From NCBI RefSeq assembly GCF_900115205.1, contig NZ_FOYQ01000002.1, positions 124,001 through 188,000 on the forward strand: a DNA stretch of 64,000 bases, read 5' to 3'. Positions 20,548 to 26,721 of the stretch are shown here, one piece after another. The stretch comes from Robiginitalea myxolifaciens (GTDB taxonomy: Bacteria > Bacteroidota > Bacteroidia > Flavobacteriales > Flavobacteriaceae). How positions within the stretch are numbered: position 1 is the stretch's first letter; each line of letters opens with the position of its first letter. The position numbers and the translations under genes are program-made. The notes below the pieces were generated by a model. The model saw nothing but the letters and a program-made list of their open reading frames with translations, had not been told where the DNA came from and did no database searches.

Positions 20548-23325
20548 TTAAAGTTTTTCTTTAAGGTAGCTACCGGTTATGGATTCTGCAGTTTTTACGA
20601 TTTCTTCAGGTGTACCTGCGGCCAGTAAATTACCCCCTTTTTCGCCTCCTTCAGGCCCCAGATCAATGATGTGATCGGCGCATTTTATCAGGTCCAGATT
20701 GTGTTCGATGACCAGGATGCTGTGTCCTTTGTCTATGAGCGCATCAAAAGAGACGAGTAGCTTTTTGATGTCGTGGAAATGAAGCCCGGTAGTGGGTTCG
20801 TCAAAGATGAAAAGTCCTTTGTCGCGACTATGGCTTTTGCCCAGAAAGCTAGCTAGTTTAATTCGCTGGGCTTCTCCACCCGATAGGGTAGACGAGGATT
20901 GTCCTAGGGTTACATAACCCAGGCCAACATCTTGCAACGGCTGTAGCTTTTGTGCGATCTTTTCTGCGCCGGAATTCCGGAAGAACGCGATGGCATCGTC
21001 CAGGGTCATTTCGAGGATATCACTGATGGATGCGCCATTATAACGCACCTCAAGGACTTCCTTCTGAAACCTTTTACCCCGGCAAACATCGCATTCCAGG
21101 TGTACATCGGCCATGAACTGCATTTCCACGGTAACTTCGCCTTCCCCTTTGCACTTATCACAGCGACCTCCGTCTACATTAAATGAAAAGTGTTTGGCCT
21201 TGTATCCCCTTACCTTACTCAACTTCTGGTCTGCGAACAGGCTTCGGATCTCGTCATAGGCTTTGATGTAGGTTACCGGGTTGGAACGCGAGGACCTTCC
21301 TATTGGATTCTGGTCTACAAATTCTACATACTTGAGGAATTTGAAATCGCCTTCGAGCCGGCTGAACTGGCCGGGCTTTTCACCATAACCACCGAGCGCC
21401 TTTAGCAGGGAAGGGTAGAGGATGCGGCCAATCAAGGTGCTCTTACCACTCCCGGAAATCCCGGTGACTACCGTAAGGGCCTGCAAGGGAATCCGGATGT
21501 CCAGGTTTTTCAGATTGTGCTCCCGGGCACCAATTATGTCGATATGCCCCTTAGGACTTCTCCGCTTCTGGGGTATTGGAATTTGTAATTTGGAATTTAA
21601 ATATTGAGCCGTAAGGCTATCGGCCTTCAGGATTTCGGAATAGCTGCCTTCCGCAACGATTTCTCCGCCATGAGTCCCGGCCTCCGGTCCAATATCGATG
21701 ATATGATCGGCTGCCTTCATCATATCTTCATCGTGTTCAACTACGATCACCGTGTTGCCGAGGTCCCGAAGCGCTTTCAGCACATCGATCAGGTTCTCAG
21801 TATCTCTGGGATGCAAGCCAATACTGGGCTCGTCCAGAATATACATGGAGCCTACCAGGCTACTACCCAAACTAGTCGAGAGATTGATCCGCTGACTCTC
21901 CCCGCCCGAAAGCGAATTGGATTTCCGGTTTAATGTCAAATAACCCAGTCCAACTTTCTGTAAGTATCCAACCCGGTTCCGGATTTCAGTAAGGAGCCGC
22001 CTTCCGATATGCAGGTCGTGTTCCCCTAATTCGAGATCTTCGAAGAAGGTGGCGAGTTCGTAAATGGGTAATTCTACCAGGTCGGAAATGGACTTTCCGT
22101 AGATTTTCACGTATTCCGTCTCGGGTCTTAACCGGCGTCCTTTACATTGCGAACAGCGCGTTTTTCCGCGATAACGCGAAAGCATGACCCTGTTTTGGAT
22201 CTTATAACTCTTCTCCTCTAACTTGGAGAAAAAGGCGCTGAGACCCGTAAAAGATGCGTTTCCATCCCAAACCAGATCTTTTTGCGCTTCAGTGAGCTCA
22301 AACCAGGGCTTGTGAATGGGGAAATCGAATTTATAAGCATTGTTTACCAGTTTATCCCGGTATTTACTCATGCGCTCTCCCCGCCAGGGAAAGACGGCAT
22401 TATCATATATAGAGAGCGAGGTATCGGGAACCACTAACTCCGGATCGATTCCAATGACATCCCCATACCCTTCACATTTCGGACAAGCCCCGTAAGGGTT
22501 GTTGAAACTGAACAAATGCACATTTGGCTCGGGAAAACTCATCCCGTCTAACTCAAATTTGTTGCTGAATTCCTGGACTTTGCCCGTGCCAACTTCCTCC
22601 AGGGCACATATTCCCTTACCTTCAAAAAAGGCAGTGTCCACAGCATCGGCCAGTCGATTAAAAAAGTCCTCATCGTGGCGCACCACAATCCGGTCGACCA
22701 CTAAATCGAAGGTCCGGCCGGCCAATTCCATATCGGGTTCGATCCGCTGAACGCCCTGAGGAGTCTTTATTCGGGCATAGCCTTGTTTGGAAAGCAGCTC
22801 CAGAGACTTTTTGGTTTCCCGGTCTTCCGGGATCACCACCGGCGCCAGCAGGAGTAACTTTTCCCCTTCTTCATACTCCCTTACTGCATCTACCACATCA
22901 CTAACGGTATGCTTTCGGACTTCTTCCCCCGAAACCGGCGAGTAAGTCTTTCCAATGCGGGCATAAAGCAATTTGAGGTAATCGTAGATTTCTGTTGACG
23001 TGCCAACCGTTGAACGCGGATTGGTAGAATTTACCTTCTGTTCAATGGCAATCGCCGGGGCGATACCCTGAATGTTGTCTACCTTGGGTTTGTCGAGTTT
23101 ACCGAGGAATTGACGGGCGTAGGAGGAAAGGCTCTCCACGTAGCGTCGCTGCCCTTCGGCGTAGAGGGTATCGAAAGCCAAAGAGGATTTACCCGATCCG
23201 GACATCCCGGTTATCACTACCAACTGATTCCTGGGAATGGCGACATCGATATTCTTGAGATTGTGGAGGCGAGCCCCTTTAATCAAGATCTCTTTTCGCT
23301 TCGCGCTAGCCGGAATTTCATTCAT
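20548..23325 (-). CDS. uvrA: excinuclease ABC subunit A
   Basis: 925 residues from the ATG at 23323-23325. A longer in-frame start exists at 23361, but the -7 box at 23330-23337 puts it upstream of the transcript. UvrA is the damage-recognition ATPase of nucleotide excision repair. Two ABC ATPase modules are visible: Walker A GMSGSGKSS in the first and GISGSGKST in the second, each with an LSGGE signature. Zinc-binding Cys pairs occur (CPKCEGYG and, in the second half, CDKCKGEG with CDVCRGKR). It diverges from the sigma factor gene. Confidence 0.97.
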   Translation of the reverse strand: MNEIPASAKRKEILIKGARLHNLKNIDVAIPRNQLVVITGMSGSGKSSLAFDTLYAEGQRRYVESLSSYARQFLGKLDKPKVDNIQGIAPAIAIEQKVNSTNPRSTVGTSTEIYDYLKLLYARIGKTYSPVSGEEVRKHTVSDVVDAVREYEEGEKLLLLAPVVIPEDRETKKSLELLSKQGYARIKTPQGVQRIEPDMELAGRTFDLVVDRIVVRHDEDFFNRLADAVDTAFFEGKGICALEEVGTGKVQEFSNKFELDGMSFPEPNVHLFSFNNPYGACPKCEGYGDVIGIDPELVVPDTSLSIYDNAVFPWRGERMSKYRDKLVNNAYKFDFPIHKPWFELTEAQKDLVWDGNASFTGLSAFFSKLEEKSYKIQNRVMLSRYRGKTRCSQCKGRRLRPETEYVKIYGKSISDLVELPIYELATFFEDLELGEHDLHIGRRLLTEIRNRVGYLQKVGLGYLTLNRKSNSLSGGESQRINLSTSLGSSLVGSMYILDEPSIGLHPRDTENLIDVLKALRDLGNTVIVVEHDEDMMKAADHIIDIGPEAGTHGGEIVAEGSYSEILKADSLTAQYLNSKLQIPIPQKRRSPKGHIDIIGAREHNLKNLDIRIPLQALTVVTGISGSGKSTLIGRILYPSLLKALGGYGEKPGQFSRLEGDFKFLKYVEFVDQNPIGRSSRSNPVTYIKAYDEIRSLFADQKLSKVRGYKAKHFSFNVDGGRCDKCKGEGEVTVEMQFMADVHLECDVCRGKRFQKEVLEVRYNGASISDILEMTLDDAIAFFRNSGAEKIAQKLQPLQDVGLGYVTLGQSSSTLSGGEAQRIKLASFLGKSHSRDKGLFIFDEPTTGLHFHDIKKLLVSFDALIDKGHSILVIEHNLDLIKCADHIIDLGPEGGEKGGNLLAAGTPEEIVKTAESITGSYLKEKL

Positions 23326-23329
23326 GGTG

Positions 23330-23337
23330 CAAAGATA
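23330..23337 (-). promoter_or_regulatory. -7 promoter box (TATCTTTG) of uvrA
   Basis: Perfect TAnnTTTG ending 4 bases before the uvrA ATG, with a TTG 21 bases upstream as a possible -33. The predicted transcript start falls on or next to the A of the ATG, implying a leaderless mRNA. Confidence 0.6.
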
Positions 23338-23398
23338 CGATGCTGCTGGTGTTAAATACAATCCAGTCGATACTCATGCCAGACAATTTATTAAGGGA

Positions 23399-23429
23399 TT
23401 TTGAAGGGAATATTTTTTTTCTATCTTTG
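23399..23429 (+). promoter_or_regulatory. promoter of the first sigma factor gene
   Basis: TTTTG at 23399-23403, an 18-base spacer and a perfect TATCTTTG at 23422-23429. This is the best -33/-7 pair in the window. It leaves a leader of about 115 bases before the ATG at 23552. Confidence 0.65.
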
Positions 23430-23551
23430 GAAAGCTTTAACGTATTTAAACTCAAGGCCTATATAGCAATATTACTTTTTTGAATTAACCCAAATCCCTG
23501 ATCCTTTCCGGTCGCCCGGTGGGCTCAGAATCACCAAAAAAGTAAATTGTT

Positions 23552-24136
23552 ATGGAATTGCTTCAGGCTGAGGACTCCACACTTGTAAGAAATTATATGA
23601 ATGGCGATGAAGCCTCATTAGAGGTCTTAATCAATCGCCACAATCAACGCATCTCTTCCTTTATATACTCCAAAGTCTTTGACAAGGAGATCACCGAGGA
23701 TATTTTTCAGGATACCTTTATTAAGGTAATACGAACGCTGAAACGCGGGAAGTATAACGAAGAAGGTAAGTTCCTGCCCTGGGTAATCCGGATTGCACAT
23801 AACCTGGTTATTGATCATTATCGCAAAAGCAATCGCATGCCGCGTTATGAAAGCGGACCCGATTATTCGATATTCGCGATTTTGCAGGACGATAACCTCA
23901 ATGCGGAAAAGCAATTGATCCAGGAACAGATCCAAAGCGATATCGGAAGTATGATCCGGGAACTCCCCGAAGAACAACAGGTGGTTATACAGATGCGCAT
24001 GTTTCGGGATATGAGCTTCAAGGAAATTGCCGACAGTACGGGAGTCAGTATTAATACGGCCCTGGGGCGCATGCGTTATGCCCTGATCAATCTGCGTAAG
24101 ATGATTGAGGAGAATCAAATAGTTTTAACGAACTAA
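23552..24136 (+). CDS. ECF-type RNA polymerase sigma factor, copy 1
   Basis: 194 residues with the two-domain layout of group 4 (ECF) sigma factors. Region 2 spans about 25-95 (LINRHNQRISSFIYSKV, TEDIFQDTFIKVIRTL, FLPWVIRIAHNLVIDHYRK) and region 4 about 135-190 (RELPEEQQVVIQMRMF, MSFKEIADSTGVSINTALGR, the promoter-contacting helix-turn-helix). No anti-sigma gene with a membrane helix follows; instead a 47-residue gene lies 111 bases downstream. By eye about 70% of residues match the second copy at 24715-25299, including an identical stretch at VSINTALGRMRYALINLRK. It diverges from uvrA. Confidence 0.93.
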   Translation: MELLQAEDSTLVRNYMNGDEASLEVLINRHNQRISSFIYSKVFDKEITEDIFQDTFIKVIRTLKRGKYNEEGKFLPWVIRIAHNLVIDHYRKSNRMPRYESGPDYSIFAILQDDNLNAEKQLIQEQIQSDIGSMIRELPEEQQVVIQMRMFRDMSFKEIADSTGVSINTALGRMRYALINLRKMIEENQIVLTN

Positions 24137-24247
24137 TCATACCATAGGTCGGGAAGCGGTTTCTTTAGACGAATTATTTCGCCCTAGAACGAACCAAAAC
24201 ATAGTTATTCCATTGCTTGGCGTTATTTTGATATACAACCCGAAGCG

Positions 24248-24391
24248 ATGGAAGACAATTACTACTGTACACAAGGCCAACAAGAATTAGTTAGCGCCAA
24301 ACCAGAGACCATCAGATTCCTAATGGATTTCTCCCGCTCTTATAAAGTAGAGCGAATTGGAGGAATGGAATTTGAGCAGAACCTCAATTAA
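24248..24391 (+). CDS. 47-residue protein paired with sigma factor copy 1
   Basis: ATG at 24248, TAA at 24389-24391, 47 residues starting MEDNYYCTQGQQELVSAK. It is too short for usual gene calling, but the protein after the second sigma gene has exactly the same length and matching positions: ME and Tyr at the start, FL..FS.S..V in the middle (residues 24-33) and FE..LN at the end. No membrane helix, signal or Cys pair. Small proteins with an (R/D)FLL.(Y/F)SKSL core are, as I recall, common and undescribed in flavobacteria. An anti-sigma or co-regulator role is only a hypothesis from context. Confidence 0.7.
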   Translation: MEDNYYCTQGQQELVSAKPETIRFLMDFSRSYKVERIGGMEFEQNLN

Positions 24392-24714
24392 TCGGACGGC
24401 ACTTCAAGGAATATGAAGGGCATTGCGATACGTAAGTCTTATTCTTTACACTTTGTAGGTTAGCGCCTACACCTCCCATTTTTATCCCCGGGCCACTTCG
24501 GGGGCAATCCTGGAAATTATCGGGATTTTGGACAATAAATTCCAAAACTGACGTTTGACATCAGGATTCCGTGCTTTTACAACATACTTTTTACGACGGT
24601 AGGGCCATTGGCTACTTTTAGGATGTGTTTGAATCGCAGGCACACGCATCGTTACAAAAAGTATTACGCTAAACCGCGCTTAAGGCGCACAAAGGCAACC
24701 TAAAGCACCGCCAA
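24392..24714 (+). other. 323-base intergenic region between the two sigma modules
   Basis: No reading frame of note. It holds a hairpin at 24454-24471 (TGTAGG/CCTACA, followed by a weak T-run), a CCCCG/CGGGG hairpin just after it (from about 24486), and a near-consensus -7 box TACTTTTA at 24613-24620 that may drive sigma factor copy 2. I see no remnant of a third copy of the module. Confidence 0.5.
24454..24471 (+). terminator. possible terminator after the first sigma module
   Basis: Six-base stem TGTAGG (24454-24459) with CCTACA (24466-24471), loop of 6, followed by CCTCCCATTTTTAT. The T-run is displaced, so this is a weak candidate. Confidence 0.35.
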
Positions 24715-25299
24715 ATGGAACTACAAATTGAAGACTCAATTCTGGTCAGAGATTACATCAGCGGGGACGAAAGAGCCCTGGAAATCCTGATCAACCGCCA
24801 CAACCAGCGGATCACAAGTTTTATTTATTCCAAAGTCCTGGATCGGGACACCACAGAAGACATTTTTCAAGACACTTTTATCAAGGTTATCAAAACCCTG
24901 AAAAAAGGCAATTACAGCGAAGAAGGTAAATTCCTTCCCTGGGTAATGCGAATTGCCCACAACCTGATCATTGATCATTTTCGCAAGAACAAGCGCATGC
25001 CTAAATTCGAAGGCAGCGATGATTTCAACATCTTTTCCGTAATCGGAGATGACCGTCCCAACGCGGAAAAACAATTGATTAAAGAGCAGATAGACAGTGA
25101 CTTAACTGTCCTTATCGACGAGCTTCCAGATGATCAGCGCGATGTGCTTATCATGAGAATTTACAAGGATATGAGTTTCAAAGAAATCTCAGAATGCACT
25201 GGAGTTAGCATCAACACTGCGCTGGGACGCATGCGATACGCGCTTATTAACCTTCGCAAAATTATCCAGAAGAATAAGATCGTCCTGACCAGCCAGTAA
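24715..25299 (+). CDS. ECF-type RNA polymerase sigma factor, copy 2
   Basis: 194 residues and the same length as copy 1. Region 2 (TEDIFQDTFIKVIKTLKKG, FLPWVMRIAHNLIIDHFRKN) and region 4 (MSFKEISECTGVSINTALGR) align without gaps apart from one residue near the N-terminus. Most differences are conservative or lie in the linker (MPKFEGSDDFNIFSVIGDD). It is again followed by a 47-residue gene. The tandem arrangement shows duplication of a two-gene module; the differing linkers and region 4.1 suggest the two may have separated in control. Confidence 0.93.
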   Translation: MELQIEDSILVRDYISGDERALEILINRHNQRITSFIYSKVLDRDTTEDIFQDTFIKVIKTLKKGNYSEEGKFLPWVMRIAHNLIIDHFRKNKRMPKFEGSDDFNIFSVIGDDRPNAEKQLIKEQIDSDLTVLIDELPDDQRDVLIMRIYKDMSFKEISECTGVSINTALGRMRYALINLRKIIQKNKIVLTSQ

Positions 25300-25369
25300 T
25301 ACGATCAAAAAGCACTGAGCAATATTTCCATTTGGGTTGCGTTATACCTATGTAACGAACTCTAAGCAC

Positions 25370-25513
25370 ATGGAAAAAATTTACTCCGAACACGCCAGTG
25401 CCTGCGAATTTAGAAAGGTTAGTAAGGAAAAGGTTGATTTCTTACTGGCATTCTCCAAGTCTCTGAGCGTAGTATCTTTTAAAAATTTCCGGTTTGAAGC
25501 AACATTGAATTAA
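25370..25513 (+). CDS. 47-residue protein paired with sigma factor copy 2
   Basis: ATG at 25370, TAA at 25511-25513, 47 residues starting MEKIYSEHASACEFRKVSKE. Same length as the protein at 24248-24391, with the shared core LLAFSKSLSVV (residues 24-34) and the shared ending FE.TLN. An intercistronic element (TTCCATT, then GCGTTAT 12-13 bases later) is conserved before both genes. A strong intrinsic terminator follows, so this gene ends the transcript. Function unknown. Confidence 0.72.
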   Translation: MEKIYSEHASACEFRKVSKEKVDFLLAFSKSLSVVSFKNFRFEATLN

Positions 25514-25537
25514 GCCGGGTACCGTAATACTTTGAAG

Positions 25538-25564
25538 CCCTCACAGTTATGTGGGGGTTTTTTT
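25538..25564 (+). terminator. intrinsic terminator after the second sigma module
   Basis: CCCTCAC (25538-25544) pairs with GTGGGGG (25551-25557, one G-T pair), 6-base loop, then T7 at 25558-25564. Confidence 0.85.
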
Positions 25565-25579
25565 ATGGGATAGCGGCAC

Positions 25580-26230
25580 CTATTTTTTCATAGCCTTCCG
25601 CAAAACTGCTTTGCGACCTATTTTTTGGGTGATCTTATCCTTGCTCAGATCCCAGCCCCGTGCCGGGCAATATTCCCTTCCGTACCAGATTATTTGCAGA
25701 TGCAGTTTGTTCCACAAATGTTCCGGGAATAGTCTTTTGGCATCTTTTTCGGTTTGAACCACATTCTTTCCCGTAGAAAGCCCCCAGCGATACATAAGCC
25801 GATGAATATGTGTATCGACCGGAAAAGCCGGTATTCCAAAAGCCTGGGAAATCACAACGCTGGCGGTTTTATGCCCCACGCCAGGGAGTTCCTCCAGTGC
25901 CTCCAAATCCCGCGGGACTTCCCCCTGGTATTTTTCAAGCAGAATTTCGGAAAGCCTGTGTATCGCTTTAGCCTTGGTGGGTGAAAGCCCAACCGGGCGG
26001 ATAATGGCGCGGATTTCGTCTACGCTAAGCCGAATCATGGCTGCCGGATTATCGGCGCGATCGAAGAGCAGGGGAGTGGTCTGGTTCACGCGGACGTCCG
26101 TACTCTGGGCGGAAAGCAGTACAGCAATTAGTAAGGTATATGGATCTGTATGTTCAAGGGGAATGGGAACTTTGGGATAAATTTCTTCAAGGGTCTGAAT
26201 GACAAAGTTTGCTTTTTCCTTTTTGGTCAT
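25580..26230 (-). CDS. nth: endonuclease III without the iron-sulfur cluster
   Basis: 216 residues from the ATG at 26228-26230; 23 further upstream codons are open but overlap the divergent promoter. It is a DNA glycosylase/AP lyase for oxidised pyrimidines. The helix-hairpin-helix LPGVGHKTASVV carries catalytic K121, and D139 follows in FPVDTHIHR. The C-terminal [4Fe-4S] loop of the E. coli enzyme needs four cysteines; here only C188 (YGREYCPARGWD) remains and the rest of the loop is replaced by a short basic tail. The same ending is familiar to me from other Flavobacteriaceae. It diverges from bcp. Confidence 0.93.
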   Translation of the reverse strand: MTKKEKANFVIQTLEEIYPKVPIPLEHTDPYTLLIAVLLSAQSTDVRVNQTTPLLFDRADNPAAMIRLSVDEIRAIIRPVGLSPTKAKAIHRLSEILLEKYQGEVPRDLEALEELPGVGHKTASVVISQAFGIPAFPVDTHIHRLMYRWGLSTGKNVVQTEKDAKRLFPEHLWNKLHLQIIWYGREYCPARGWDLSKDKITQKIGRKAVLRKAMKK

Positions 26231-26238
26231 TTTTTGTT

Positions 26239-26246
26239 TAACTTTG
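26239..26246 (+). promoter_or_regulatory. -7 promoter box (TAACTTTG) of bcp
   Basis: Perfect TAnnTTTG, 22 bases before the bcp ATG at 26269. Confidence 0.5.
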
Positions 26247-26268
26247 AAACTAAAATAATAAACAAAAC

Positions 26269-26721
26269 ATGAAGACATTACAGGCTGGCGATCCGGCACC
26301 TCAGTTTACAGTAAAAGATCAGGATGGAAACACTGTTTCTGCTTCGGATTTTAAAGGTAAGAAATGGGTTGTATTTTTCTATCCCCGTGCTAATACCCCC
26401 GGATGCACTGCCGAGGCTTGTAATTTGAGGGATCACTACGCCGAACTGCAGGCAGCGGGTTACAGCTTACTGGGAGTAAGCGCAGATTCTCAGAAAAAAC
26501 AAGCCAATTTTCGGGATAAATATGACTTTCCGTTCCCGCTACTGGCCGATCAGGATCGTGAGGTTATTGAGGCTTTTGGCGTTTGGGGCCCCAAGAAATT
26601 TATGGGCAGGGAATTCGACGGTATCCATCGCAAGACCTTTATTATCGACGAAAGCGGCACTATAAGCCGGGTAATTGAGAAGGTAAATACCAAGGACCAC
26701 GCTGCTCAAATCCTTGAGTAA
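26269..26721 (+). CDS. bcp: thioredoxin-dependent thiol peroxidase, Bcp/PrxQ type
   Basis: 150 residues, a peroxiredoxin that reduces hydrogen peroxide and organic peroxides in the cytosol. The peroxidatic cysteine C46 lies in NTPGCTAEAC and the resolving C51 five residues later, the PrxQ atypical 2-Cys pattern. The TPGCT active-site motif and full length are intact. It diverges from nth, so two oxidative-damage defence genes share one control region. Confidence 0.95.
   Translation: MKTLQAGDPAPQFTVKDQDGNTVSASDFKGKKWVVFFYPRANTPGCTAEACNLRDHYAELQAAGYSLLGVSADSQKKQANFRDKYDFPFPLLADQDREVIEAFGVWGPKKFMGREFDGIHRKTFIIDESGTISRVIEKVNTKDHAAQILE

Follow-up and report, generated by a model that had tools for sequence, protein, structure and literature searches.

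Tandem ECF sigma factor genes with 47-residue partner proteins in Robiginitalea myxolifaciens: a candidate reduced anti-sigma factor, a promoter-like element and a predicted RNA leader

The sigma genes and their small partners

The window analysed here is a stretch of 64,000 nucleotides from the 3.2 Mb genome of Robiginitalea myxolifaciens (contig NZ_FOYQ01000002.1, positions 124,001 to 188,000). It contains two ECF sigma factor genes in tandem, each followed by a short open reading frame (Table 1). A sequence-only reading of the same DNA had described two sigma genes of exactly 194 codons, about 70% alike, with 47-residue frames 111 and 70 bases behind them. Both sigma genes were found at the positions given there, the alignment yielded 69% identity (132/191), and the distances from the sigma stop codon to the small frame, 111 nt in copy 1 and 70 nt in copy 2, agreed exactly. 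Membership in the ECF group was assigned from the Sigma70 region 2 and region 4 domains, which scored above the Pfam cut-offs in both proteins. When the model of a fused sigma-linker-small construct was compared with known structures by VIA-align, ECF sigma chains or domains were found at Z 12–14 (top ten rows; mainly model residues 3–195). The nearest named relatives of the sigma factor belong to the Flavobacteriaceae.

Upstream of the unit lies uvrA, pointing away from it, and downstream lies nth, pointing toward it. Among 80 named loci, the best 80 of at least 586 relatives, uvrA was present on 76 and nth on 74 in either orientation, and both were on the fetched stretch in 71. With these neighbours, a setting in DNA damage or oxidative stress is conceivable for the unit.

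Table 1. Features of the two sigma/small-protein units, in window positions.
Feature	Position	Strand	Basis or remark
TATCTTTG, match to the primary-sigma TAnnTTTG -7 box	23422..23429	+	TTG 18 nt upstream (23401-23403)
Predicted structured leader of sigma1, with GCCTATA, a long hairpin and a stem that takes in the start codon	23453..23554	+	Covariance model, folding, covariation
5' arm of inner stem (TTACTTTTTTG)	23472..23482	+	Predicted fold
Leader element	23535..23545	+	Same basis as the 5' arm 23472..23482
sigma1, ECF sigma factor, 194 aa	23552..24136	+	Sigma70_r2 1e-13, Sigma70_r4_2 3.5e-9, above Pfam cut-offs
CGTTAT, candidate -10 element of small1	24221..24226	+	-35 site 24201-24205 is ATAGT, not CAATW
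small1, 47-aa partner (stop included)	24248..24391	+	HMM match, pN/pS
sigma2, ECF sigma factor, 194 aa	24715..25299	+	Pfam; no leader motif in front
CAATA-N15-CGTTAT, candidate ECF-type promoter of small2	25320..25345	+	Same pattern in 23/23 second copies
small2, 47-aa partner (stop included)	25370..25513	+	HMM match, pN/pS

The two small proteins are identical at 15 of 47 positions (BLASTP E = 2e-6 for the single comparison), and the ME start, FL..FS.S..V core and FE..LN end that had been pointed out as common to both were present in our alignment. The absence of a membrane helix and of a zinc motif was likewise supported. Neither protein matched any Pfam, NCBIfam, PHROGs or PADLOC model; because PADLOC, Pfam and NCBIfam gave nothing, the toxin-like effector suggested earlier was dropped, as was a toxin or defence identity altogether.

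In a search with the sigma factor, 51 of 60 relatives had a sigma at E <= 1e-30, and loci were fetched from 50 of them (G053 was left out). By eye, a partner frame was seen behind 58 of the 63 sigma genes in these loci, and no recognisable partner was seen at L043, L044, L047, L050 and L051. An HMM was then built from 48 aligned small frames of the window and its relatives (alignment A2; the rows of A2, A6 and A8 were chosen by eye); outside A2 are, among the small or longer frames, those of L009, the second copy of L012, L025, L037, L038, L040, L042, L046 and L049. In the 80 named loci, which as the best 80 of at least 586 confirmed relatives lean toward near relatives, the HMM matched on the same strand behind 90 of 90 sigma genes, and five mononucleotide shuffles of every downstream stretch gave no match. 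As to overlap with the training set, L110, which contributes one of the 90, duplicates the training locus L026, and 4/90 small proteins share 90% identity or more with some HMM row; the two window copies, themselves HMM rows, matched at E 2.8e-19 and 1.5e-17. The likeness of the small frames, which had been judged to exceed chance, and their fixed position after this sigma family, which had been put forward as a check, were both borne out in these loci.

The co-occurrence of the two genes was followed in 149 genomes, one per genus, apparently Flavobacteriaceae as judged by named relatives. The small protein was found in 139 and the sigma factor in 143; 138 genomes had both, five had neither, five had the sigma alone and one had the small protein alone (Fisher p = 2.6e-6, comparing presence per genome and not adjacency). 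The single genome with the small protein alone, G292, rests on a match at E 1.2e-4, and G013, scored sigma-less at E <= 1e-50, holds a sigma at 4.8e-48. In G025, G260, G277, G350 and G360 the sigma was present and no small gene was detected; four of these five genomes are 1.6–2.2 Mb in size and the fifth is 3.1 Mb. Two small genes were present in 18 genomes, all of which also carry two sigmas, as expected from the earlier proposal that the pair was duplicated as a unit; in G319 a single small gene accompanies two sigmas.

Pooled pN/pS values in frame were 0.43 and 0.33 for the two small frames in the window's genome and eight genomes of the same genus, and 0.9–1.4 in the two shifted frames, with synonymous sites near saturation. 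The comparison of rates, proposed earlier as a test of the frames, thus indicates purifying selection. Short frames that lack a family model could be untranslated and owe their conservation to a regulatory RNA or an overlapping signal. The difference between in-frame and shifted values, a protein profile present across 139 of 149 genera and homology to a longer protein (see below) make this highly improbable. Spurious frames were ruled out by the HMM matches, the presence in 139 of 149 genera and pN/pS. We concluded that the small frames are real protein-coding genes at a fixed place behind the sigma gene.

Longer homologues and class I anti-sigma factors

In part of the class, a protein of 73–90 residues, here called the long form, was found behind the same kind of sigma factor. 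Within the order, some other families have a partner frame of 60–90 residues (L037, L038, L040, L042, L046, L049) and others a short one. Long-form matches were obtained in 45 of 149 class genomes. Among 41 class loci (38 distinct), the long form lay at most 160 nt from a sigma gene of the same profile, or overlapped it, in 29, and 710 nt away in one; on the fetched stretches of the other 11 (L143, L144, L147, L162, L167, L169, L170, L176, L179, L182, L184) no such sigma was found beside it. At L144 and L147 the long-form gene was flanked by nth on one side and, on the other, by an enolase gene that is itself followed by a small gene.

The short and the long form are homologous, with residues 13–47 of the former aligned by hhalign to residues 53–88 of the latter (probability 95.6, E 1.1e-8 for the single comparison). 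Four of the proteins without a sigma on the stretch (L167, L169, L170, L176) combine the full long N-terminal part with the ...LN tail of the short form. In L166, L171 and L172 the long form, directly after a sigma of the same profile, runs on into a hydrophobic stretch (KD19 1.6–1.9). More distant proteins, L151, L153 and L156, were found via the N-terminal part and follow another ECF sigma.

For seven of eight proteins, comprising long forms, membrane forms and distant ones, the best NCBIfam match was an anti-sigma model, below the cut-off save for L156; values were 0.0068 for L148, 0.0033 for L037 and 4.7e-5 for L171, all below curated cut-offs. Pfam gave no anti-sigma match for the ten long forms of alignment A6, nor for L166, L171, L185, L151 and L153, and among the proteins given to it only L156 had one. 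When long-form profiles were searched against the PDB, MucA and RseA ranked first, weakly, with the smaller profile (E 0.49 and 0.61), and no anti-sigma was found with the larger one.

In known class I anti-sigma factors (ASDI: RseA, MucA, RskA, RsiW, ChrR), helices 1–3 bind sigma4 and helix 4 binds sigma2, as described in the available part of PMC7406223. Like these, the 47-mer is encoded directly behind an ECF sigma gene: a place beside the ECF gene was found for 90/90 sigma genes of the named loci (best 80 of at least 586) and was missing by eye at 5/63 elsewhere. It also keeps a segment in the putative place of ASDI helix 4, homologous to the long form and predicted to be helical, and its longer homologues match anti-sigma models, mostly weakly. 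In contrast to ASDI proteins, it has neither the part with helices 1–3 nor a membrane anchor or zinc motif, and it carries a C-terminal tail with a predicted beta hairpin. Since the three-helix N-terminal bundle is absent from the 47-residue form, in alignment A2 as well as in the AlphaFold model, we do not class it as ASDI and regard it as a likely descendant. Our best reading is that the 47-mer is probably derived from a class I anti-sigma factor, having lost helices 1–3 and kept the sigma2-binding helix 4 and the tail; the assignment of its segments to particular helices is putative and comes from sequence comparison. The earlier statement that the protein is not a classical anti-sigma therefore holds for its build and not for its descent, as its homologues suggest an anti-sigma ancestry.

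A further small regulator to compare is CnrY, which is membrane-anchored. It is the class II anti-sigma of CnrH; as described in PMC7406223, its cytosolic portion is very small and ends in a helix that binds sigma2 in the manner of ASDI helix 4. Unlike the 47-mer, it keeps a first helix, which binds sigma4.

AlphaFold predicted for the small protein alone a helix at residues 19–31 followed by strands at 32–37 and 40–45 that form a beta hairpin (pLDDT 81.7), and this model had no PDB match at E <= 0.001. In the fused sigma-linker-small run the pTM was 0.46 and the secondary structure of the small protein was the same as alone, so that neither result argues for docking. Covariation between sigma and small protein was weak (mutual information, Neff 37, with phylogeny still in the signal), and the contrast with sigma4 gave p = 0.067 for sigma2 plus linker and p = 0.23 for sigma2 alone.

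Promoter-like element, leader and their division between copies

The intergenic regions between sigma and small gene contain a promoter-like element. CGTT was present in 146 of 147 regions (about 0.12 expected from shuffles), mostly 27–41 nt before the ATG, and CAATW stood exactly 15 nt upstream of CGTT in 100 of the 147. In Flavobacterium psychrophilum, probable ECF promoters are recognised by a CGT box (PMC9723704, where the sigma that reads the SM6 promoters is not assigned). The pattern suggests that the sigma factor of the locus reads CAATW-N15-CGTT. Genome-wide, the exact pattern was not enriched in 31 genomes (23 matches against 22 for the reversed control), and a looser pattern gave 7 matches and 7 control matches in the window's own genome. 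The small gene was the target of an exact match in 4 of the 31 genomes and was the only gene that recurred downstream of such matches (first frame, by eye).

Just past the sigma stop codon, at 24146–24200 and in the first-copy intergenic regions of L003–L014, we noted AGGTCGA-like words, twice in some loci and in several first-copy loci about 33–35 nt before CGTT (by eye); they are a possible alternative -35 or activator site. At 25340–25360 and in many other intergenic regions, ATAAC or TAACG often follows CGTTAT after a few nucleotides and forms a small inverted repeat (by eye).

That the small gene is a target of the sigma had been one suggestion of the sequence-only reading, and it gains support from the ECF-type promoter in front of it. 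This promoter, together with the recurrence of the small gene alone behind exact matches, would also fit a small protein that is solely the main target of the sigma, an effector or stress protein whose anti-sigma likeness is a leftover. Longer homologues that adjoin a sigma of the same profile in 29/41 loci and resemble anti-sigmas, and the agreement in copy number between sigma and small gene, render this decidedly unlikely.

A second element precedes the sigma gene. In most regions the order was primary-sigma box, GCCTATA, ATTACTTTT, about 25–65 nt, AAAAGTAAT and ATG. The box, with the consensus TAnnTTTG taken from the accessible part of PMC9723704, occurred in 87 of 120 leader-motif upstream regions (shuffled mean 18.7), and together with an upstream TTG in 61 of the 120 (shuffled 1.9). 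The 120 leaders had passed a regular expression that covers the 5' half only; eight mis-anchored loci were dropped to give 112, removal of near-identical leaders left 102, and 16 more, several with irregular arms, were taken out by hand to give the 86 rows of alignment A5. All 112 were used for folding and the 86 rows for the covariation counts.

The window leader (23436–23566) folded with an MFE of -30.6 kcal/mol (z -2.96) and a predicted stem that takes in the start codon. Over the 112 leaders the mean z was -2.95, with 106 below -1, and at least two start-codon bases were predicted to be paired in 73 (shuffled mean fraction 0.27). The two arms covary: the observed values were reached by 0 of 500 shuffles of the 86 hand-chosen leaders, and most of the signal was lost when partner positions were slid. 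On the aligned leaders RNAalifold found no consensus fold.

A covariance model of the leader was matched by 25 of 40 genomes, always in front of the same sigma gene, many of these loci having trained the model; at most 111 candidates were scored per genome, so further places may have been missed. The match in the window (1.2e-4), a training locus, was the only one listed for its genome, with 111 of 1005 candidates scored. One extra match was noted elsewhere in the 40 genomes (G017:C53:638-754, E 3.4e-4). Comparison of 22800–26400 with 4227 Rfam families gave no match at the leader and one sub-threshold match elsewhere (RF00512, 25483–25564, E 0.24), and a known Rfam cis-regulatory family was ruled out by this absence of a covariance-model match.

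The conserved arms could instead form a DNA-level inverted repeat for a regulator, or belong to a promoter, and not be an RNA hairpin. In favour of this, the sequences ATTACTTTT and AAAAGTAAT are themselves highly conserved, and no structure is predicted by RNAalifold. The TAnnTTTG box, where present, mostly lies 25–40 nt ahead of GCCTAT, which should place the element inside the transcript, and the compensatory changes in the arms, the folding z, the start-codon pairing above shuffles and the position of the 3' arm just before the ATG all speak for RNA. We consider a DNA-level element unlikely.

An RNA leader of this kind would block translation of the sigma. In F. johnsoniae, translation is tuned by mRNA structure, and messages that are structured around the start codon tend to be translated less (PMC6847099). 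In the model the window hairpin stayed mostly closed up to 60 °C, which makes heat alone an unlikely opener there. The GCCTATA motif at the leader's 5' end was strongly conserved and mostly unpaired in the folds of the A5 loci; it is a candidate binding site for a ligand, a protein or a small RNA. Neither the promoter-like element nor the leader figured in the sequence-only reading.

In 23 distinct tandem loci the two elements were distributed strictly between the copies. The leader motif preceded 23/23 first sigma copies and 0/23 second copies, and the full CAATW-N15-CGTT preceded the small gene in 23/23 second and 0/23 first copies; single-copy loci had the leader motif in 84/91 and the full promoter in 73/91. 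This distribution looks as if a single ancestral unit had shared out its cis elements between two copies, the 23 loci being related by kinship and not 23 independent events. In the sigma tree, first and second copies did not form two clean clades (at least three label changes for first and at least two for second copies), so the tree does not fix the number of duplications.

A possible self-limiting switch

We propose that leader, ECF promoter and reduced class I anti-sigma factor together make the locus an ECF sigma switch that limits itself, a reading that we regard as marginally probable. Transcription of the sigma gene would start at a primary-sigma promoter and yield a leader with a hairpin that masks the bases ahead of the start codon and in many cases the codon too; little sigma should be translated until the hairpin opens. 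The sigma would then fire the CAATW-N15-CGTT promoter ahead of the small gene, the product of which would be a class I descendant of 45–50 residues. In this product the part matching the sigma4-binding helices 1–3 would be gone, and the helix-4 part, which would bind sigma2 at the RNA polymerase docking site, would be kept together with the tail (a beta hairpin in the model). By binding sigma2 the small protein would shut the sigma off. In the clade of the window the unit would be doubled, with the leader on copy 1 and the full promoter on copy 2.

That the small protein binds and inhibits its sigma is suggested by its descent and position. It might bind without inhibiting and act as a chaperone, as a co-activator or as an adaptor for delivery of the sigma to a protease: all that is left in the 47-mer is the helix-4 region and a conserved C-terminal tail with LN as its last residues, and class I inhibitors use both interfaces (PMC7406223). 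The promoter ahead of the small gene suits negative feedback equally well and no adaptor family was matched, and we find such a role unlikely. For the inhibitory switch, a wider claim would be that a stand-alone anti-sigma of helix 4 and tail, an ECF promoter and a leader hiding the start codon control this sigma in the Flavobacteriaceae and, with longer forms, in part of the Bacteroidia, the leader being nearly confined to this gene; this is tentative, and we would not quite call it probable. To our knowledge, a 47-residue anti-sigma would be among the smallest ECF anti-sigmas known.

Among known systems of the Bacteroidota, EcfO/Reo of Bacteroides/Phocaeicola is likewise a sigma and anti-sigma pair. 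Its Reo crosses the envelope as far as the surface (PMC13114119), in contrast to a partner of 45–50 residues without a membrane helix. Bacteroidetes are not named in the consulted portion of a review of non-canonical ECFs (PMC8999054). In open-access PMC titles and the starts of abstracts nothing was found on these small proteins or on the leader; structured 5' regions of F. psychrophilum, given in a supplement, may include the leader. A sigma/anti-sigma-like unit with a partner cut to about 47 residues and an RNA leader was not found described in these titles and abstract starts.

The small protein is a concrete and widespread candidate regulator for one sigma family, small enough to have escaped notice. 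Class I anti-sigmas stand beside only 6% of Bacteroidetes ECFs compared with 32% overall, and the control of the rest is left open in the accessible part of PMC7406223; if the proposed role is true, the small protein would account for some of the anti-sigmas that are reportedly absent there. Should helix 4 be inhibitory by itself, the minimal requirements of an anti-sigma would prove very small. In a phylum without Shine-Dalgarno sites (PMC6847099), the leader would be a cis-regulatory RNA. With a defined promoter-like element and an RNA leader, every link of the locus is open to test.
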